Shown: positions 27,968 through 35,794 of the stretch, piece by piece
Layout: each line of letters starts with the position of its first letter
Position numbering within the stretch: the first letter of the stretch is position 1
Assembly (NCBI GenBank): GCA_000492175.2
Contig: CP097573.1
Coordinates: 1,364,001 to 1,428,000, forward strand
DNA: 64,000 nucleotides
Reading direction: 5' to 3'
From: Firmicutes bacterium ASF500
GTDB lineage: Bacteria > Bacillota > Clostridia > Oscillospirales > Oscillospiraceae
Notes under the pieces: generated by a model
What the model was told of the DNA's origin: nothing
Seen by the model: the letters and a program-made list of their open reading frames with translations, nothing else
The model's database searches: none
Made by a program: the position numbers and the translations under genes

Positions 27968-28747
27968 ATGACCAACATGAAAAAGCGCATTGCCGCCACA
28001 CTGACAGCAGCTATCCTCACAACTGTCCTCACTGTCCCCGCCATGGCAACGGAAACGCCCGACAAATCCGTCCGGGTGAGCAGTTACAAGGGAAGTACCC
28101 TGGAGGTAGGAGACCGTAGCGGACTCATCATCGGTCCCAGCGGTGCAAACTATACTGTGACTTCCAGCAACCCAGACACGGTAGCGGTGGAACAGGTGCT
28201 GACCTTCTGGGTTGCCATTGCCAAAGCGGAGGGGATCGCAGAGATCACCGTCTCCAACAGCGCTGGAGAACGTGGGACCGTAATACTGACGGTTGGCTCC
28301 GCAGCCCCCGCTGCGCCGGAAGCCCCCGCCAGCGGGGACAGCGCCGGCCTGACAGACAACCTGGAGATACGGCAGGAGATGATCTGGCTCATCAACCAGA
28401 CCCGAAAGGACAACGGAGTGTCGGAACTGCCGGTCAGCGAGGCCCTAATGAATGCCGCCCAAGCCTGCTCCGACCGGCGCTACACATGGCATCACGCCCT
28501 GGAGGAAAGCCAAGCCGCTGTTGACGCCGGTTACCCCTATGGCTTCGGCGACAACCTCACCGTGTTCACTGGTACAGACAACGCCGCCCAGCGCGCTGTC
28601 GACAATTGGATCAACTCGCCCGGCCACTTCCAGACCATGATCGACCCGAGATGCGACTGCATCGGTGTGGGCGTGACCCAGTACGACGGCATCACCTACT
28701 GCTATATGTTTGTCGGAATACCCAACAGCGTCAACTTCTACACATAA
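27968..28747 (+). CDS. Secreted CAP-domain (SCP/PR-1) protein with Ig-like domain
   Basis: 259 residues. Residues 1-28 form a Sec signal peptide (KKRIAATLTAAILTTVLTV, cut near AMA-TE). Residues ~32-110 resemble a bacterial Ig-like (BIG2) domain, followed by a Pro/Ala-rich linker, and residues ~125-259 are a CAP domain (IRQEMIWLINQTRKDNGV, WINSPGHFQTMID, GVGVTQYDGITYCYMF). CAP proteins in Firmicutes are secreted and of mixed or unknown function. Good site TAGGAGGAAAA before the start. Partial copies of this gene occur at 3733, 12489, 35664 and perhaps 48690. Confidence 0.88.
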   Translation: MTNMKKRIAATLTAAILTTVLTVPAMATETPDKSVRVSSYKGSTLEVGDRSGLIIGPSGANYTVTSSNPDTVAVEQVLTFWVAIAKAEGIAEITVSNSAGERGTVILTVGSAAPAAPEAPASGDSAGLTDNLEIRQEMIWLINQTRKDNGVSELPVSEALMNAAQACSDRRYTWHHALEESQAAVDAGYPYGFGDNLTVFTGTDNAAQRAVDNWINSPGHFQTMIDPRCDCIGVGVTQYDGITYCYMFVGIPNSVNFYT

Positions 28748-28803
28748 CCAAACAGTAACCAAGGAGGGCCGTCCAGGAAGCTGGATGGCCTTCTCTCATG
28801 GTG

Positions 28804-28902
28804 GTAGAAAGCAGAGTACAGGCAGAAAAATACAACACCGGGGAGCAGATTTACTGCTCAGATATTGCGTACCAGTAAACAAGGAATTAAACCCCTTTAT
28901 CA
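28804..28902 (+). repeat. Direct repeat DR-L at the left edge of the immunity/mob island
   Basis: A ~100-base stretch containing AAGCAGAG-ACAGGCAGAAAAATA and ATTTACTGCTCAGATATTGC is repeated in the same orientation at 35697-35794. It encodes no intact gene. The remainder of 28903-29090 holds only small non-conserved frames (one reads CVCYLNKENGGTAYTVDYAG, ending at 29053), probably a gene remnant. Confidence 0.75.
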
Positions 28903-29130
28903 GTCCCAAGGCTGTATGCACAAGCGGAACCGCCATTTGGTAGACAACAGCAGCGTGTGTGTCTGCTACCTCAACAAGGAGAACGGCGGGACGGCCTATA
29001 CAGTGGACTATGCGGGAAAGAAAGGACTGGAGATCATCAACCTTGCCCTCTAACAGCAAAAGCGCACCATAGGCGGTTAGGGGCTGTTCTCTTGACGGTC
29101 TGGATAGGCGGAACGGACATAGAGCAGGGA

Positions 29131-29159
29131 TTGTTTCCAGCGGGGAAGTGTGCTATACT
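29131..29159 (+). promoter_or_regulatory. Cassette promoter P (left copy)
   Basis: TTGTTT and TATACT are spaced by 17 bases. The whole module from 29091 (CTTGACGGTCTGGATA...) to 29160 is repeated on the minus strand at 35118-35050 ahead of the SUKH gene, with the same promoter spacing. Confidence 0.75.
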
Positions 29160-29209
29160 GGGGTTAGCAAACTAAGCGACAAGTTGGATTTTCAGAGGAG
29201 GGTTTCTTA

Positions 29210-29596
29210 ATGGAGATGGAAGGTATTGTATCTGTATGGGCGGGTGTATTTGAAACAGACAAGGCATTAAGGGAATATTTTGATTATATGCCTGGGCGTG
29301 ACATTCCTCCTTTTAGCCAGGATTTTTTTGATGGGTGCGACATCTATCCTTTTGACATAGATTTTTCAGAACGAAGTGTTCATGAATTTACAGTAGACCC
29401 AGAAGTGTTGGTATGTCATAATTCTGAAGGTACAGATATAGGGCTGGAATTGAAAAAACTCTTTCCGCAGGGGTTGGAAAAGCCCTGCAATGCGGCAATT
29501 TTGGTCTACAACTACAAGTATGACCCAGAAGACGGCACTCCCAACCCCAATGCACCAGTGACTTTTTTAGGTGCGGTTCCATGTGCTTTGGATTGA
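29210..29596 (+). CDS. Imm22/DUF4284-like immunity protein
   Basis: 128 residues, start ATG 29210 after GAGGAGGG. The pattern GIVSVWAGVF near the start, then an acidic stretch with FSQDFFDGCDIYPFDIDF, and a late NAAILVYNYKYD fits the Imm22 (DUF4284) family, whose members neutralise nuclease domains of polymorphic toxins. No toxin gene is adjacent, so it would be an orphan immunity gene. It has its own promoter module shared with the SUKH gene at 34995. Less GC-rich than its neighbours, a sign of transfer. Family call from motif memory. Confidence 0.6.
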   Translation: MEMEGIVSVWAGVFETDKALREYFDYMPGRDIPPFSQDFFDGCDIYPFDIDFSERSVHEFTVDPEVLVCHNSEGTDIGLELKKLFPQGLEKPCNAAILVYNYKYDPEDGTPNPNAPVTFLGAVPCALD

Positions 29597-29636
29597 TACA
29601 CACCAGCTTATCAGGCTGACAAAAGTACAAAACAGT

Positions 29637-29658
29637 GCGGCGGTGATTATCCCGCCGC
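29637..29658 (-). terminator. Hairpin T (inverted copy of the relaxase terminator)
   Basis: GCGGCGG and CCGCCGC around TGATTATC. On the minus strand this region (29670-29600) matches 34300-34375, the terminator that follows the relaxase, including the downstream ACTTTC/ATAAGC bases. So a relaxase 3' flank lies here in reverse, next to the Imm22-like gene, just as T lies next to the SUKH gene. Confidence 0.65.
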
Positions 29659-29701
29659 GCTCTCTATTATTGCCCCATATCCTGCCCTTGTCGGTCAAGC
29701 A

Positions 29702-29913
29702 TTTGCCCCTATCCTGTTCTTTGGGAGAGGCCGGGGGCGCAGGGGCAGAGCCACCGCAAAACCTACCGTCAGCCGCCGCACCAGTGCAGACGGTTTTGCC
29801 GTTATAATGAAGCGGACGAAAGCGAGGGGCAGGGTTGTCAAATCCTGTTCCCCGTTTTCGGCGGCGAAATGGCAACGGCAAAAATGCAGACAGTCAAGGG
29901 GACAGAGTGGAGT
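29702..29913 (+). repeat. Inverted repeat IR-L (about 210 bp)
   Basis: Nearly identical to the reverse complement of 35151-35360 (shared runs include GGGAGAGGCCGGGGGCGC and TTGTCAAATCCTGTTCCCCG). The two copies flank the DUF3847-immunity-relaxase region. Small frames inside are probably not genes. Recombination between the copies would invert the 5.2 kb between them. Confidence 0.85.
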
Positions 29914-30063
29914 CCTTGACCGTTCCGGGCTGGGCTTATCGCAAAAAAATGACAGAAAGCCATAGGCCGGAGTGGTACTGGCAGCGGCTCTCAACCATCA
30001 GAACCATTTCCGTTTTGTCAGTAGCGGTGTCGGTGATGTCCTGCACAAAATAGCCGGAAACGG

Positions 30064-30474
30064 GTGGGGACGGTGTTGCCCCTGGGGCGCTGTGTCACAC
30101 AGTCCGAATTGAGAAGATTAAGCATTGAGGAAGAAATCCGCCAGCTTGAAAACAAGAAAAAGCGGCTCATCCAAGAGCAGAAAGAGCAAGAGCGCAAGGA
30201 CAGGACAAACCGGCTCTGCAAGCGCATGGGGCTTTTTGAGAAGCTGCTGCCCGACACCATCCCGCTGACGGAGGAGCAGTTCAAGACCTTTTTGGAGCAG
30301 ACCGTACTGACCGAACACAGCCGCCGCATACTGGACGGATTGACCGCCCAGAACGCCGCCACAGCCCCCGCACAGGGCGCAGGAACGGCGGGGAGGGATA
30401 ACACCCAGCCTGCCGCCAAAACCGCCCATCCAGCACAGGAGGGCGGCGCAGACGGGAGCGCGGTGCAAGGGTAA
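30064..30474 (+). CDS. DUF3847-family mobilisation-associated protein
   Basis: Up to 136 residues from GTG 30064; the natural start is unclear because the region before SELRRLSIEEEIRQLENKKK looks foreign. The core is a charged coiled coil (IRQLENKKKRLIQEQKEQER) followed by RLCKRMGLFEKLLPDTIPLT and EEQFKTFLEQTV, which I recognise as DUF3847, a small protein encoded just before MobA/MobL relaxases in Firmicute mobilisable elements. The tail is Ala/Gly-rich and ends AVQG. Its 3' end is repeated twice more downstream (R1 copies), while the relaxase now lies 2.4 kb away. Confidence 0.7.
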   Translation: MGTVLPLGRCVTQSELRRLSIEEEIRQLENKKKRLIQEQKEQERKDRTNRLCKRMGLFEKLLPDTIPLTEEQFKTFLEQTVLTEHSRRILDGLTAQNAATAPAQGAGTAGRDNTQPAAKTAHPAQEGGADGSAVQG

Positions 30475-30532
30475 CGGGCTTGCGGAGTGAGGCCGGGGGT
30501 ATTATCCATCCCCGGCCCCGTTGGGCGTTATT
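30412..30532 (+). repeat. Repeat R1, copy 1 (3' end of DUF3847 gene plus hairpin)
   Basis: Contains GCAAGGGTAACGGGCTTGCG (30465-30484), whose TAA is the DUF3847 stop, then a GGCCGGGG/CCCCGGCC hairpin and CCGTTGGGCG. Further copies at 31692 and 32843 each begin an immunity unit or the relaxase. Confidence 0.8.
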
Positions 30533-30561
30533 GTGCCGCTGTTCTGCCGGTGGATGTTGCC

Positions 30562-30885
30562 TTAATGCGCCTTAAAAACAGAGATATATTCATCATAGGC
30601 TTCCTTTATTTTTCTTCGGCAAATACTTTTCCATAAGGAAATGCACTTGCCCCTATCTCGTAAGGTGTCCGGTTCCATATTGCCCCCAAATCCAATACAA
30701 TCCTCGTCGTATTCAATTAACCCTTTTTCTCCAGATATTGCAATTTCATTCGGACATTCACAAAAGCTAAACTGCGTACACTTAAAACAGTATATTCCCA
30801 GCTTAAATGTATTTTTGCATGGGTGAATTTCTTCACCTATCGCTCCATCGCAATACCCTTCGATAAGCAAATGTTGCATTTTCAT
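30562..30885 (-). CDS. Unrecognised small Cys-rich protein, slot-1 gene of unit 1
   Basis: 107 residues (MKMQHLLIEGYCDGAIGEEI...). Eight Cys residues, several in the middle (CFKCTQFSFCECPNEI) that could bind a metal. No family recognised. It occupies the position between R1 and R3, the same slot as the 111-residue gene of unit 2, and like it is antisense to the mobilisation genes. Size, low GC and setting suggest an orphan immunity protein, but that is inference. A stretch with CUUCUCC on the minus strand serves as ribosome site region. Confidence 0.5.
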   Translation of the reverse strand: MKMQHLLIEGYCDGAIGEEIHPCKNTFKLGIYCFKCTQFSFCECPNEIAISGEKGLIEYDEDCIGFGGNMEPDTLRDRGKCISLWKSICRRKIKEAYDEYISVFKAH

Positions 30886-30967
30886 TTTGGTAAGACTTCT
30901 CCTTCCGTTTATTACCTGATACCATACTTTTCTCCTTCGACAAAAATATAACTTTGCGCCCGCCGCC

Positions 30968-31020
30968 TGGACTGCGTGACCGAGGTACGCATGGGCAACA
31001 CCGGCCTCACCGTTTCCGGC
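30968..31020 (+). repeat. Repeat R3, copy 1
   Basis: ACTGCGTGACCGAGGTACGC then GGGCAACACCGG and CACCGTTTC; matched by 32187-32239 with ~80% identity by eye. Both copies remain open in one plus-strand frame (C-V-x-E-V-R-x-G-N-T-G), so R3 looks like the 3' end of a lost gene. Confidence 0.75.
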
Positions 31021-31568
31021 TAATTCAAAATGATAGAAAGATATTTACTATCAACAAAACTGCCCCAGCCATCCCATGCCGACATATGCTTGATTTTGCT
31101 CATATCTGGGAGTGGAATATCATGTTTAGATAAAAGTTGCTGCATATCTCGAAAGACACTTATCGTTTCTTGAAACGCATAATCCAGACTTGCACCATCG
31201 CAGGTATTGCAAAATTCAATGGGCAGCATCAAGAGTTGATTGATTTCATCCTCTGCGTTGCCAGTTGTCAGACCTGCAAACAAGGCTGTCAGTTCTTGAT
31301 AATCTTTTTCGGAAAGTGTCCCATTATAGTTTCCTGTATTTGTCTTTTCATAGCCCTCAAACTCAAAAAGAAATTCGGGAATAACAGCAGAATAGATGTC
31401 CCAGCCCTTGTCCCAATAATCTTCCGTCCACTGCCAACAACGCTTTGCTACTGGTGTCCAATCTCGTTCGGGGAAACGAGTGACCAAGTATGTTTCAACA
31501 CACATAAACAGGTAGCAAAACCTCCCGGTCAAAGAGAGTTTTTTCCAAGCTCTTTCTATATTTTTCAT
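31020..31568 (-). CDS. Imm6-like immunity protein, slot-2 gene of unit 1
   Basis: 182 residues from ATG 31568 (MKNIERAWKKLSLTGRF), picked because CGGAGGTCACT is directly upstream; a longer version from 31595 is possible. Helical, with CYLFMCVETYLVTRFPERDW, AKRCWQWTEDYWDKG and a C-terminal WDGWGSFVD. The Trp-rich central part resembles Imm6 family immunity proteins, but the match is from memory. Lies between R3 and R2, in the slot taken by a membrane protein gene in unit 2. No toxin partner nearby. Confidence 0.5.
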   Translation of the reverse strand: MKNIERAWKKLSLTGRFCYLFMCVETYLVTRFPERDWTPVAKRCWQWTEDYWDKGWDIYSAVIPEFLFEFEGYEKTNTGNYNGTLSEKDYQELTALFAGLTTGNAEDEINQLLMLPIEFCNTCDGASLDYAFQETISVFRDMQQLLSKHDIPLPDMSKIKHMSAWDGWGSFVDSKYLSIILN

Positions 31569-31604
31569 AGTGACCTCCGATAGATTTTCCATCACTATCC
31601 ATTA

Positions 31605-31665
31605 AAGAATTTCAAAACTGCAACCTCGCTCCTGCCAAAATCGGTGGGAGCATTTTTCATGGAAG
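31605..31665 (+). repeat. Repeat R2, copy 1 (includes terminator-like hairpin)
   Basis: AATTTCAAAA-CTGCAACCTCGCTCC then GGTGGGAGC and ATTTTT. GCTCCTGCC pairs with GGTGGGAGC. Matched by 32775-32840 (GCTTCTGCC/GGCGGGAGC then GTTTTT). Confidence 0.75.
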
Positions 31666-31691
31666 CATATGACGAACCGGCCTAAACGGTA

Positions 31692-31783
31692 GCCAGAACG
31701 GGGGCGGGGCGCAAGGGTAACGGGCTTGCGGAGCGAGGCCGGGAGGGGGTACACTTCCCTTGGCCTTGTTGGGCACTACTGCG
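31692..31783 (+). repeat. Repeat R1, copy 2
   Basis: Again contains GCAAGGGTAACGGGCTTGCG (31711-31730) preceded by a DUF3847-like C-terminal reading (GAQG stop), then GAGGCCGGG and CTTGTTGGGC. It begins the second unit 1246 bases after the first. Confidence 0.8.
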
Positions 31784-31817
31784 CCATCTTCGTGTAAAGC
31801 TATCGGTGTAATATCTC

Positions 31818-32153
31818 CTACTTGAGCTTTTGGTTAATTAGGTCTATCTCATCCGTCAATTCTTCGAGTTCATCCTCTGAAAGAACATGACCATGACACA
31901 GTTCAGAAGAGAATAGGCAATTCAATTTATTTATATGCTTTCTAAAGAACCTCAACTCATCGGCTGAATGGAAAGCCGCCCTGTAAAAAAGAGTGCTATA
32001 TACAGCCAATGCATCCAAGCCACCTTCGGATATTTGTTTTCCAAACTCATATAAGCATCTATCCACAGATTGCCTTATTGTAAAGTTTTCTGCAATAATG
32101 TACTCGTAAAATGCCTCAATAACATGATACTTTAGTTTATAAAACTCGCTCAT
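31818..32153 (-). CDS. Imm3-like small helical protein, slot-1 gene of unit 2
   Basis: 111 residues, all-helical by composition (FYKLKYHVIEAFYEYIIAEN, SVDRCLYEFGKQISEGG, then VLSEDELEELTDEIDLINQK). The N-terminal half recalls the Imm3 family (small immunity proteins with an EYI...A...EF pattern), but similarity is weak and I hold it loosely. It lies between R1 copy 2 and R3 copy 2, antisense to the mob genes, matching the position of the 107-residue Cys-rich gene in unit 1 although the two proteins are unrelated. Confidence 0.45.
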   Translation of the reverse strand: MSEFYKLKYHVIEAFYEYIIAENFTIRQSVDRCLYEFGKQISEGGLDALAVYSTLFYRAAFHSADELRFFRKHINKLNCLFSSELCHGHVLSEDELEELTDEIDLINQKLK

Positions 32154-32186
32154 GCTTATTGTTCTCCTTAAAACACTGCCATCACT

Positions 32187-32239
32187 CAGCCTGCGTGAAC
32201 GAGGTACGCATAGGCAACACCGGCTTCATCGTTTCTGAC
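32187..32239 (+). repeat. Repeat R3, copy 2
   Basis: CTGCGTGAACGAGGTACGCA then AGGCAACACCGG and CATCGTTTC; second copy of R3, 1.22 kb after the first. It overlaps the 3' end of the membrane protein gene. Confidence 0.75.
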
Positions 32240-32705
32240 GTTTCTGCCAGCGGAATAGACCAAGGGAATAATCTATCATGTAAAGTAAGGGCATTCCTGC
32301 GATGAATATCCAAAAATAGTGACTTGTAAAAAGAATGAAACATATATCCTTTAGGATATTCATAAATGGGGAAATGATAAAATTGGACTTACTTATATTA
32401 AGGATTAAAAACAAAAGCACAATTATCAATTCGCTTAAAAGCCACGGAAACGCTACTATGCAATATACACACCCTAAAAGGGGAAGTTTATTTCGCTCTC
32501 CTGGTGCTGTTTCAGAATCTTTTGACCTGGTACGTCGAGGAGAGATTAAAATGCCTCGTAGTTTTTTGCTCCGAACTCGATAATAAAATTTCGCTGATAG
32601 TAAAAAAGGAAAATAGCAAGAACAAAGTCGTTCCAAAAATATTGCGACCATCACTTCCCAAATCCATCCAAAGAAGATAAGGCACAAACAGGTTTCAATA
32701 CTCAT
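32226..32705 (-). CDS. Small multi-pass membrane protein, slot-2 gene of unit 2
   Basis: 159 residues with four hydrophobic segments: CLCLIFFGWIWEVMVAIF, CVYCIVAFPWLLSELIIVLL, a third in FMNILKDICFILFT, and WIFIAGMPLLYMIDYSLGLF. A polar loop (~45-75) is basic. No family recognised. By position (between R3 copy 2 and R2 copy 2) it is the counterpart of the Imm6-like gene. A membrane immunity protein against a pore-forming or envelope-targeting toxin would fit, but nothing in the sequence proves it. Confidence 0.5.
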   Translation of the reverse strand: MSIETCLCLIFFGWIWEVMVAIFLERLCSCYFPFLLSAKFYYRVRSKKLRGILISPRRTRSKDSETAPGERNKLPLLGCVYCIVAFPWLLSELIIVLLFLILNISKSNFIISPFMNILKDICFILFTSHYFWIFIAGMPLLYMIDYSLGLFRWQKRQKR

Positions 32706-32774
32706 CGCGATTATCCATCCCCATTAGTTTGTAACCAGTCTACCACAACAGTCGTCATTTTTCCACTATCATCC

Positions 32775-32840
32775 ATCAAACAATTTCAAAATATCAACCT
32801 CGCTTCTGCCCAAAAACGGCGGGAGCGTTTTTATCGCAAC
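32775..32840 (+). repeat. Repeat R2, copy 2
   Basis: AATTTCAAAATATCAACCTC then GCTTCTGCC, a short loop, GGCGGGAGC and GTTTTTAT; second copy of R2 1.17 kb after the first, ending unit 2. Confidence 0.75.
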
Positions 32841-32842
32841 CA

Positions 32843-32924
32843 CCGTCAAAACCGACCATCAGCACAGGGGAACGGCGCAGGCGGGAGCCGGAACGGGGGC
32901 GCGGCGCAGAGGTAACGGGCTTGC
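32843..32924 (+). repeat. Repeat R1, copy 3, fused to relaxase
   Basis: Matches the end of the DUF3847 gene over ~80 bases (CCGTCAAAACCGACCATC, AGCACAGG, GGCGCAGGCGGGAGC, GGTAACGGGCTTGCG). The relaxase frame begins right after it, without start codon. Confidence 0.8.
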
Positions 32925-34310
32925 GCCACGTTCCCTGCCCCCAGCAAGGGCAAGTCCGCCGTTGCCGCCGCCGCTTACCGGGCGGGGGAGAAACTCACCA
33001 ACGACTTTGACGGGGAAACCCACGACTACACCCACAAGGGCGGCGTTGTCCATACCGAGATTTTATTGCCAGACCACGCCCCCAGCCAGTACGCAGACAG
33101 GGCGGTTTTGTGGAACGCGGTGGAGAAAATCGAGAAAGCGAAAAATGCCCAGCTTGCAAGAGAAATTGAAATTGCCCTGCCCCGTGAATTGACAAGGGTG
33201 CAGGGCATTTCTCTTGTCCGCGAGTATGTGAAAGAGCAGTTTGTCAATGCGGGAATGTGCGCCGACTTTGCCATCCACGACACCGGCGGCGGCAACCCTC
33301 ACGCCCATATCATGCTGACAATGCGCCCCATCCAGCAGGGCGGCGCGTGGGGAGCAAAGCAGAAAAAGGAGTACATCCTTGACCCGCAGGGAAAGAAAAT
33401 CTATGACCCGAAAAAGCGGCAGTACAAGTGCAAGGCCATCCCCGCCACCGACTGGAACGAGCAGACCAAGGTCGAGGAATGGCGGGCGGCGTGGGCGCAG
33501 CTTTGCAACCGGGCGTTGGAGCAGTACGGACACGCCGGGCGCATCGACCACCGCAGTTATGAGCGGCAGGGCATCGACCAGATACCCACCGTCCATTTAG
33601 GCGTTGCCGCTTCCGCTATGGAGAAGCGCGGCATCCGTACCGAGCGCGGCGATCTGAACCGGGAAATCGAAGTGACAAATCAGAAGTTGCGGCAACTGAA
33701 AGCCCGTATCGCCAAGCTGCAAAAGTGGCTGAAAGAGGAACAGGAGAACACCGAGCCGCCCACCCTTGCCGACTATATCCAGGGCATCCTGTCCCGCAGG
33801 GCGCGGGAGGGGAAATCGCAGGTTTCCCAATCCATCTATAATCTCAAGGACGCGGCGAAAATGCTGAATTTCCTGCAAGCCAACAACATCATGGATATGG
33901 CGGGGCTTGATGAAAAATTCAAGTCCATGATAGGGGAACAACTGGACATTCAAGGCAAGCTGAAACCCGTTGAACGGCGGTTAGGCACTCTGAAAAAGCA
34001 CATCGAGCAAGCCGACATTTACTTCAAGTACAAGGGGAAAAAGCCGCTGACCGAGGCCGAGCAAATCCTATTCACGGCGGCGCATGACTATCTGAAAGGC
34101 GTGATGAACGGCAAGACCGTCCTGCCGGTAAAGGCGTGGAAAGCGGAGTATACCAAACTGACCGCCAAGAGGGAAACGCTCAACCGGCGGTATCTCGCGC
34201 TGAAAGGGGAAGTGAAAGAAGCCGAGCAAATCCGCAGGAGCGTTTACAATATCGTGCGGCAGGAACAGCGGGAGCAGCAGCCCCGCAGGGCGCAGGATAT
34301 GGAGCAGTAA
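32916..34310 (+). pseudogene. MobA/MobL-family relaxase, 5' end missing
   Basis: Open from the stop at 32913 to 34310; the recognisable family sequence begins at ~32943 with GKSAVAAAAYRAGEKLTND, so the usual first ~12-15 residues with the initial Met (HCSVKII...RG-type) are lost. The first internal Met is at 33066. The relaxase HUH site is visible as GNPHAHIMLTMR (paired His), with an upstream Tyr-bearing N-terminal part damaged. C-terminal half is coiled coil (REIEVTNQKLRQLKARIAKL). Relaxases nick oriT for conjugal mobilisation. The break sits exactly at R1 copy 3, so loss came with the insertion of the immunity units. An unnoticed non-ATG start is possible. Confidence 0.8.
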
Positions 34311-34314
34311 CACG

Positions 34315-34348
34315 CAGGGCGGCGGGATAGTCACCGCCGCCCTGTTTT
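34315..34348 (+). terminator. Terminator T after the relaxase
   Basis: CAGGGCGGCGG and CCGCCGCCCTG form an 11-bp stem with an 8-base loop, then TTTT. An inverted copy lies at 29604-29670. Confidence 0.85.
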
Positions 34349-34428
34349 GGACTTTCAGCAATCGAATAAGCCGGTCAAAGAAGGGGCTAAGGTGGCAACC
34401 TCAGCAAGTAACAGACCAGATACCACAG

Positions 34429-34995
34429 TTATATAAAATCTGATATTTCTTGGTTACCATTAAGCCACTTCAAAAGCCATTCAAAGAAAGTCAACTTAGG
34501 CTTACATGGGGACATTCCTTCGCCACAGAAAAACCAGATTTGTCCCTTGCTTGGCCCATTCAAGATTAAATCCCATCCAGCGCCATCACCTAATTCAATT
34601 AGCGTCAAGTGTCCATAAACCGTAGAGTCTAATAAATCGCTGATTCGACCTTTGTATTCCTTTTCAGATTCATCCGGTTTTCTTGGGAAAACTGCCTCAT
34701 CGTCATCATCTTCCCATATCCATCCATTCCAAAAAGGAAAGTCTTTTTTCAAAAAATTAGGTTTGCGAAAAGTTTGATTTAAGCGATTCATACACACGGA
34801 TGAAAAGTGTTGATTGCGGACTTTTTTCCATCCATCCCCTACTGTGGTTAAAAACAACACATATTCTGTTGGGAGTTCAACACCATACTGCTCATTAAAG
34901 TTTTCGATGTCCATCTTTGTCAAACACGGATAAGTAGGAACTTCTTTTTCTTTTATTAATTTTTCTATTTCTCTCAACATAATATCTGGTGGCAT
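34429..34995 (-). CDS. SMI1/KNR4 (SUKH) family immunity-like protein
   Basis: 188 residues from ATG 34995 with AGGAGGAAAAT before it. The SUKH fold signature is clear: MDIENFNEQYGVELPTEYVL followed by FLTTVGDGW, then later LTLIELGDGAGWDLILNG and GQIWFFCGEG, ending WLLKWLNG. SUKH proteins are the most common immunity proteins against contact-dependent and polymorphic toxins. AT-rich compared with the relaxase. Carries the same promoter module P as the Imm22-like gene and lies antisense to the relaxase between T and P. No toxin gene nearby. Confidence 0.85.
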   Translation of the reverse strand: MPPDIMLREIEKLIKEKEVPTYPCLTKMDIENFNEQYGVELPTEYVLFLTTVGDGWKKVRNQHFSSVCMNRLNQTFRKPNFLKKDFPFWNGWIWEDDDDEAVFPRKPDESEKEYKGRISDLLDSTVYGHLTLIELGDGAGWDLILNGPSKGQIWFFCGEGMSPCKPKLTFFEWLLKWLNGNQEISDFI

Positions 34996-35049
34996 ATTTT
35001 CCTCCTATTGCAGCCTTAATCTTGCGTTGGGACAAATCTGTTAAAATTA

Positions 35050-35078
35050 ATTATAGCATATTTTCTTGCTGAAAACAA
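35050..35078 (-). promoter_or_regulatory. Cassette promoter P (right copy) of SUKH gene
   Basis: On the minus strand TTGTTT (35078-35073) and TATAAT (35055-35050) with 17-base spacing. The module 35118-35050 matches 29091-29160 (TCTGGATAG-CGGAACGGA-ATAGA-C-G-GATTGTTT). Confidence 0.8.
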
Positions 35079-35129
35079 TCTCCGTTCTATATCCGTTCCG
35101 ACTATCCAGACGGTCAAGGGCCGAGTAGT

Positions 35130-35150
35130 ATTTTTTGCTCCGCAAAAAAT
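35130..35150. repeat. Short perfect inverted repeat next to IR-R
   Basis: ATTTTTTGC and GCAAAAAAT flank TCC. The left IR lacks this hairpin: there the sequence jumps from AGTGGAG directly to TCCTTGACCG. Could be a nick-site hairpin or a recombination scar. Confidence 0.5.
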
Positions 35151-35360
35151 CTCCACTCTTCCCCCTTGACTGTCTGGATTTTTGCCGTTGCCATTTCGCC
35201 GCCGAAAACGGGGAACAGGATTTGACAACCCTGCCCCCCGCTTTCGTCTGCTTCATTTTAACGGCAAAACCGTCTGCACTGGTGCGGCGGCTGCCGGTAG
35301 GTTTTGCGGTGGCTCTGCCCCCGCGCCCCCGGCCTCTCCCAAAGAACAGGATAAGGGCAA
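35151..35360 (-). repeat. Inverted repeat IR-R (about 210 bp)
   Basis: Reverse complement of IR-L (29702-29913), ~95% identical by eye. Bases 35361-35660 beyond it hold no gene I can support; they contain a CTTGACA at 35552 and GC-rich short frames. Confidence 0.85.
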
Positions 35361-35663
35361 GTGCGTCACCGGCGGGCGTGGACATTTAGGCTTGCGGCAC
35401 AGCCCCCAAACTCCCATGAATACGGCTTCCTGGGGCGCTCCAAGCCCCGATGCAGGGCGGGGTAAGGTTTTATACTACCCACCCCCGAAAACGGCTTCTA
35501 ACCGTCCACGGGACTTTTCCCGCTTGATTTTTCCCATCCCTTGAAAAGTTCCTCTTGACAAAAAGCCTAAAGGACTGTTCAGGGAACTACCGGCCCGGCA
35601 TGAGCTTTGCCGCCAAGCGGGATTACCAACGTGCTTCTAACATAGCCGGAGGATGATATTAGC

Positions 35664-35794
35664 CCTATGGCTTTGACGACAACCTCCTCGTGACGGCAGA
35701 AAGCAGAGCACAGGCAGAAAAATATAACGCCGAAGGCCACAGATTTACTGCTCAGATATTGCGTAACCGAAAACAAAGAATGAAACCCTTTCCG
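35664..35794 (+). repeat. CAP-gene scrap joined to direct repeat DR-R
   Basis: 35664-35696 (CCCTATGGCTTTGACGACAA then CCTC-CGTG) matches an internal part of the CAP gene near 28531-28562. It runs directly into 35697-35794, the right copy of the ~100-base direct repeat found at 28804-28902. The pair marks candidate outer edges of the island. Confidence 0.65.

Follow-up and report, generated by a model that had tools for sequence, protein, structure and literature searches.

The stretch of DNA analysed here (the window, 64,000 nucleotides, bases 1364001-1428000 of the one-contig 3.67 Mb genome of Firmicutes bacterium ASF500) carries, between a DUF3847 gene and a relaxase gene, an array of four genes set between recurring short borders named R1, R2 and R3. 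Two of the borders, R1 and R3, are fragments of genes that the mobile element itself carries, and the slots between them are occupied by unrelated genes. Probably the array is part of a decayed mobilizable element, of MOBQ type and found in gut bacteria of the Oscillospiraceae type, on which orphan genes, part of them immunity genes, land and are shuffled. Below, loci used for comparison are numbered with L and their genomes with G.

Organization of the array

The order is DUF3847-R1-A-geneA-R3-geneB-R2-R1-A-geneC-R3-geneD-R2-R1-relaxase, in which block A follows R1 copies 1 and 2 and is absent after R1 copy 3. An earlier note made from the sequence had described R1-gene-R3-gene-R2 twice, followed by R1; repeat, blastn and profile searches agree on this order and on a period of about 1.2 kb, with R1 spacings of 1246 (copy 1 to copy 2) and 1195 (copy 2 to copy 3). 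On the plus strand, the DUF3847 gene (30064..30474; Pfam PF12958, E 1.4e-13) ends in R1 copy 1 (30433..30484). Block A copy 1, an imperfect hairpin (30485..30539; profile and folding), R3 copy 1 (30970..31019; profile) and R2 copy 1 (31584..31655; profile and reading) complete the first unit. The second consists of R1 copy 2 (31679..31730), block A copy 2 (31731..31787; profile), R3 copy 2 (32189..32238) and R2 copy 2 (32757..32830; profile). R1 copy 3 (32877..32925) then leads to the relaxase (32938..34311), a MobA/MobL protein of MOBQ type (PF03389, E 1.6e-78). The three R1 copies and R3 copy 2 were located by repeat and profile searches, and all these features share the plus strand.

The two R3 copies are 91% identical over 45 nt and the two R2 copies 80% over 56 nt. 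Pairwise blastn of the border copies gave E-values of 4.8e-13 and 2.5e-10 for R1, 6.6e-13 for R3 and 7.4e-14 for R2. Because the values between copies are about 1e-10 to 1e-14, the repeats are not chance, and the conservation of R1, R2 and R3 between units that had been claimed is borne out. The E-values of the border profiles are stronger yet circular, since the window copies were among the seeds; blastn between copies is unseeded.

The four slot genes, of 107-183 codons, all lie on the minus strand. Gene A (30562..30885) encodes a Cys-rich protein of 107 amino acids (aa). Gene B (31020..31571) encodes 183 aa from an ATG, or 191 aa from an upstream GTG at 31595, gene C (31818..32153) 111 aa with five predicted helices, and gene D (32226..32705) 159 aa. 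Among the slot proteins and the SUKH and Imm22 proteins of the neighbouring slots (see below), blastp found nothing better than E 0.5. The array is therefore not a tandem-paralogue cluster of the esaG type, and the slot genes are mutually unrelated, as had been proposed.

Origin of the borders

R1 is, as the earlier note held, the 3' end of the DUF3847 gene; it comprises this end, the stop codon and 10 further bases. R3 is the 5' coding part of tnpW, as comparison with native tnpW indicates. Five native copies encode CVTE(I/V)R(M/R)GN(T/S)VL(T/V)VSG(Y/F)FK at this place, and the one copy tested matches Pfam TnpW (E 1.7e-10). A tnpW-like fragment, inverted relative to R3, also lies at the start of the DUF3847 gene (30048..30105, minus strand; inverted repeat I4, 79% over 58 nt by blastn). 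R2 carries a terminator-like hairpin and is probably the leader of a tnpW copy, because in L041 R2 is followed by a start codon and R3.

The host element and its origin of transfer

The relaxase frame of the window opens with a stop and has no start codon before the conserved region, so the first codons are lost and the gene is a remnant. The origin of transfer (oriT) motif is absent from the window even at 2 mismatches. The window copy of the mobilizable element is thus, as judged from its sequence, a decayed one. The earlier description of R1 as fused to the relaxase of a Mob element stands in that the third R1 leads into a MobA/MobL gene; it needs the amendment that this gene lacks its first codons and its oriT and that the copy is decayed.

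Relatives of the element retain these parts. In L025, L030 and L032, which keep oriT and the relaxase start, the array is flanked by DUF3847 and an RSF1010-like oriT, and the motif GCGCACTTATATACC starts 25-26 nt beyond R1; the L032 contig (G055) ends in the relaxase, of which it holds the first 486 bases only. In the genomes G009, G010 and G055 a PF07508 serine recombinase gene lies upstream of DUF3847, which is followed by the array, then by the oriT motif and last by a relaxase gene that keeps its start; near the window island no serine recombinase was found among the matches listed. In L025 (G010) the first R1 is without block A. More distant relatives have no room for cargo at this position: in all 14 regions compared (13 loci chosen from the better matches and a Monoglobus plasmid, with DUF3847 found by tblastn in nine and by Pfam in the other five) the motif GCGCACTTAT(A/G)CACC lies 15-20 nt after the DUF3847 stop. 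The reverse complement of this motif resembles the RSF1010 nic site on the nicked strand, TAAGTGCG/CCCT. The R1 core CTTGCG, right after which the copies diverge, was considered as a relaxase nick site and rejected, as the RSF1010-like motif lies 25-26 nt further on in three elements; its position right after DUF3847 in 14/14 distant regions also spoke against R1 as nic.

Provided that nicking affects the same strand as in RSF1010, the array would lie in the leading region and enter the recipient first. Given such nicking, most of the cargo has the same sense as the transferred strand: by hand count, 33/45 bracketed open reading frames (ORFs) are oriented against the DUF3847-to-relaxase direction, and an automated count gave 31, with two ORFs assigned to distant landmarks. 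According to a published study (PMC9849209), a leading gene that cannot use the transferred strand as template must await synthesis of the second strand before it is expressed. Early expression of the cargo is not claimed, because most of it has the sense of the transferred strand.

Several side observations concern the sequences around R1 and the relaxase start. Just before oriT, R1 and the native right half that follows it make up a long inverted repeat that spans the DUF3847 stop (L025 10285-10380, L032 580-680), with folding z-scores of -5.2 in L025 and -2.0 in L032; by reading, one pair is changed on both sides between the two loci and its pairing is kept. A third kind of right half after R1 (CACCTGCCCTTGACAAAAAGCC and variants) is seen at L025 13636, L026 8698, L027 969 and L028 1642, and in L026 a DUF434/DUF5616 gene follows it. 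Truncated relaxases are cut at nearly the same place, deeper into the gene than in the window (L026 4699, L033 4462, L044 3430, L089 2554), and the sequences upstream of the cuts differ, except that L033 and L089 share theirs.

Exchange of cargo at the borders

The same gene is found with different neighbours in different genomes, and homology begins or ends near the borders. The segment R3-geneB is 98% identical between the window and L029, where R1-A is 79% identical to that of the window (87% in the case of copy 2) and another gene stands between them; R3-geneB-R2 is 94% identical in L041, with yet another neighbour. Gene C recurs beside other sequences in L025 and L028, and in L027 the contig begins within it. 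A SUKH-like gene is common to L006 and L043, and L025 and L089 both have a DUF2716 gene in the relaxase-side slot. Between the window and Oscillibacter sp. 1-3 (L044), 633/633 bases are identical, and divergence then sets in inside gene A.

The ends of the borders are ragged. In 55 pairwise comparisons of R3 copies around a 20-nt core, the match extends 8-38 nt on the left; on the right it extends 1-20 nt in 48 pairs, and in the other seven it covers 89-590 nt of cargo. Copies of block A share 0-23 nt rightward, except where the cargo is the same (600) or a promoter-like stretch is shared (42-51). Border ends vary by up to about 25 nt and show no single crossover base, which favours homologous or short-homology recombination over a fixed crossover. 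In the same genome, the nearest PF00589 match, indicating a tyrosine integrase, is 9.1 kb from the end of the array and 6.6 kb from R4, the far border of the island.

These data bear on an integron-like, site-specific system, in which the R1-A hairpin would be a recombination site for an integrase or for the relaxase and cassettes would be inserted beside oriT. R1-A does align at 14 sites as an imperfect hairpin, and three of the six sites folded as DNA have z below -2.5; the slot genes are short and mostly co-oriented, and by reading block A and the native block leave R1 at the same base. However, the other three folded sites do not stand out (z -0.5 to -1.9), R3 is simply a piece of a gene, and the idea of a nic in R1 had to be dropped in view of the native oriT motif beyond it. 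A comparison of R1-A with integron attC sites was likewise rejected: it is hairpin-like, but by reading it does not match the attC consensus, and the ends are ragged. Searches of Rfam gave four matches, every one far under the gathering score of its family. With ragged borders and no tyrosine integrase closer than 9 kb to the array, integron-like insertion is disfavoured, and we regard it as very unlikely. About as unlikely is a variant in which R1-A beside oriT is a true cassette-joining site and the element an integrase-free immunity-gene trap that is loaded by the transfer machinery and delivered first; loading might then occur, for example, by single-strand annealing or by relaxase strand joining during mobilization.

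Homologous or short-homology recombination at element-derived borders appears to fit the sequence comparisons better than integron-like insertion. Of the two mechanisms that the earlier note had offered together, integron-like or recombination-driven accumulation, the second is the one retained; ragged ends, borders made of gene fragments and the lack of an adjacent integrase speak against the first. In the proposed mechanism, RecA-dependent or illegitimate recombination would take place between border copies of co-resident or incoming elements and would exchange, duplicate or delete the intervening gene. Intact elements would spread by conjugative mobilization, and toxin-armed neighbours may select for the keeping of useful immunity genes.

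The cargo

Across the loci, 43 landmark gaps of 150-2200 bp hold 45 ORFs, of which 42, including some copies of one gene, were scanned. Six of the 42 match named immunity families at E 1e-3 or better: SUKH-1 (two), Imm22, SUKH-2, SUKH-3 and PoNi (one each). Imm22, one SUKH-1 and PoNi are above the Pfam cut-off. The remaining matches are to DUF2716 (two), DUF4279, DUF5104, an IS110 transposase, GRAM and DUF4367 (one each). The expectation that the same borders would elsewhere flank other immunity families was confirmed with PoNi, SUKH-1/2/3 and Imm22; in addition, a PoNi gene of L041 and a Tdi1-like gene of L034 have a border on just one side.

The island extends beyond the array. To its right, between the relaxase and R4, an extra slot (34312-35048) holds a gene of the SMI1/KNR4 (SUKH-1)-like immunity type (34429..34995, minus strand; PF09346, E 2.5e-4, below cut-off), and R4 (35049..35385, plus strand; query and profile searches) forms the right-hand border of this relaxase-side slot. 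To its left is an inverted partial copy of that slot (29091-29913), in which two minus-strand fragments of R4, model positions 2-70 (29091..29159; profile) and 101-325 (29689..29913; profile and inverted repeat I1, 95%), enclose an immunity-type gene of the Imm22 (DUF4284) family (29210..29596, plus strand; PF14112, E 1.3e-7, above cut-off). The Imm22 slot has a counterpart in L030 (88% over 595 bp). The coordinates first assigned, 30412..32924, thus contain the array, but the island is larger. The view that several of the array genes look like immunity genes finds no confirmation in genes A-D; it does apply to the SUKH-like and Imm22 genes of the neighbouring slots and to slots elsewhere. As a side observation, imperfect direct repeats (85-88%) bracket the whole island (28531-28897 and 35659-35791); the left one begins, by reading only, in the 3' part of a CAP-type gene, and the right one lies beyond R4.

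None of genes A-D falls in a known family or has a match above threshold; the DUF6179 match of gene B is weak (E 0.007), and in NCBIfam neither the ten slot proteins nor TnpW match at E 0.01. The predicted structure of the gene B protein is all-helical and confident (predicted local distance difference test, pLDDT, 89.7), and the gene C model is moderate (pLDDT 73.2). The hydrophobic stretches of gene D, by reading, suggest a membrane protein. Nineteen relatives of the gene A protein were found in the protein collection; in P0049 the relative follows a fused piece labelled PF12696, from another mobile-element gene, and in P0051 it continues into a tail that reads like the R4 region. A gene A relative also occurs on an Arthrobacter citreus plasmid, where the 12 kb shown hold no annotated toxin. 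Gene B gave no match in the plasmid and phage collections and, among 200 family genomes, was found in the window only; gene C has no match among the plasmids.

Selection was gauged from nonsynonymous (dN) and synonymous (dS) divergence, in comparisons that rest on few differences. dN is well below dS in four of the five cargo genes tested: gene B against L041 (0.016 and 0.118), gene C, conserved in L025 and L028 (0.013-0.017 and 0.040-0.056), the SUKH-like gene of L006 and L043 (0.003 and 0.047) and DUF2716 (0.005 and 0.046).

Distribution

A 121-bp query around R1 copy 2 matches 10/64 genus genomes; this count, that for the family and those for the 27 chosen genomes include the window's own genome. 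A strict R1-A pattern occurs in 2/400 family genomes, so the exact form is rare outside the genus. The exact pattern was found on four contigs of three GTDB genomes, namely Oscillibacter sp. 1-3 (two contigs), a Christensenella metagenome-assembled genome (MAG) and an uncultured Clostridia MAG; two exact border patterns gave no match in viral contigs. Among 27 chosen genomes, R3 and R4 are each present in 11 (several full-length R3 matches being native tnpW), whereas R2 (78-bp query) is much rarer, with two genomes. Near 3.616 Mb the window's own genome has another island, in a more advanced state of decay: this locus (L006, G000:C1:3614000-3618600) combines several SUKH-like genes with R1-A, fragments of R4 and the tail of a relaxase gene. 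Of seven SUKH-1 matches genome-wide, two fall in these two islands, which together make up about 0.3% of the genome; neither reaches the cut-off.

Decay or selected shuffling

An alternative is a neutral scrapyard, produced by nesting and decay of mobile elements, in which immunity genes are present only as common passengers and no shuffling is selected. The relaxase of the window is without start and oriT, and relaxases are 5'-truncated in L026, L033, L044 and L089. One slot holds the IS110 transposase. In L025, L027 and L028, slots that match the DNA of gene D have no ORF of 60 aa with most of its length inside them, though a long ORF overlaps them. The fusions of gene A relatives to pieces of other mobile genes, established partly by reading, point the same way. 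Arrays on elements that keep oriT and the relaxase start (L025, L030 and, to the end of its contig, L032) argue against this explanation, as do the recurrence of named immunity families and the low dN of most cargo genes tested. On balance, a neutral scrapyard seems unlikely.

Several points weigh against selected shuffling of immunity genes. The borders, 50-75 bp at 70-91% identity, are poor substrates for RecA, and no recombination event was directly observed. In Pfam and NCBIfam, none of genes A-D matches a known immunity family, the predicted structures of the gene B and gene C proteins match nothing in the PDB at E 0.001, and the search for toxin partners of genes A-C found none; it is from the company they keep that we infer an immunity role for genes A-D. 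Across the loci, 36/42 slot ORFs are without a named immunity family at E 1e-3, and three of the six immunity matches are below the Pfam cut-off. Among 120 background ORFs, no named immunity family is included in the 25 families listed of 82, a comparison that cannot settle enrichment. Purifying selection is not clear for gene D (dN 0.192 and dS 0.265 against L028), and several slots hold decayed genes, which is compatible with a scrapyard too. R2 is not found beside the five native tnpW copies, and its reading as a leader rests on L041 and on reading. Because the R2 reading is weaker and half of the immunity matches are below cut-off, confidence in a shuffling ground for orphan genes was slightly lowered and that in a scrapyard slightly raised.

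Comparison with known systems

Among known systems, the following come closest to the array. The recombinase-associated acquired interbacterial defence (rAID) systems of Bacteroidales are arrays of short co-oriented genes of gut bacteria, some with SUKH domains, with conserved intergenic motifs (PMC12247911), features that the present array shares; R1-A, R3 and R2 correspond to the rAID motifs as a type of feature only. Unlike rAID, the array has no adjacent tyrosine recombinase that could be found in the window genome. Its hosts are Clostridia, the named R1-A carriers being Oscillibacter, Christensenella and an uncultured Clostridia MAG; its borders include pieces of the mobile element's own genes, and in relatives it adjoins the oriT of a MOBQ element.

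The orphan immunity arrays of the type VI secretion system of Vibrio cholerae are described as growing by accumulation and exchanging genes by homologous recombination, with no specific integration site (Kirchberger 2017, PMC5361080). The likeness lies in the swapping of immunity genes by homologous recombination without a specific site. Those arrays, however, stand downstream of an effector-immunity pair, whose old effectors are displaced, whereas the present one lies in a mobilization module with no effector seen. In the esaG/tipC clusters of the type VII secretion system of Firmicutes, genes are gained, lost and rearranged into mosaics through short stretches of homology between copies (about 55-100 nt for esaG; Garrett 2022, PMC9484751). 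Firmicute hosts and short homology between copies are thus common to both systems, but there the genes are paralogues of one gene, and here they are unrelated and only the borders are common.

Anti-defence genes are placed in the leading regions of conjugative elements (Samuel 2024, PMC11541004). The array resembles these islands in having protective-type genes beside oriT, on the side expected to enter first. It differs in that the types are those of immunity to interbacterial toxins rather than anti-CRISPR or anti-restriction, and in that most cargo has the transferred-strand sense, which, according to PMC9849209, excludes its being read from the single strand.

In the literature searched, which held few subscription papers, no mention of DUF3847 was found, nor, among the papers listed, any comparable island in Clostridia. 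The array is a real variant of the orphan-immunity island, of a kind not found in print here. Orphan immunity islands of Bacteroidales have already been described, and a mobile, border-swapping counterpart in Clostridia would show how less studied commensals trade protection. The short, recognisable borders can be used as hooks for new immunity families, for which genes A-D are direct candidates, and the site beside oriT makes the delivery of immunity ahead of the rest of the element testable.

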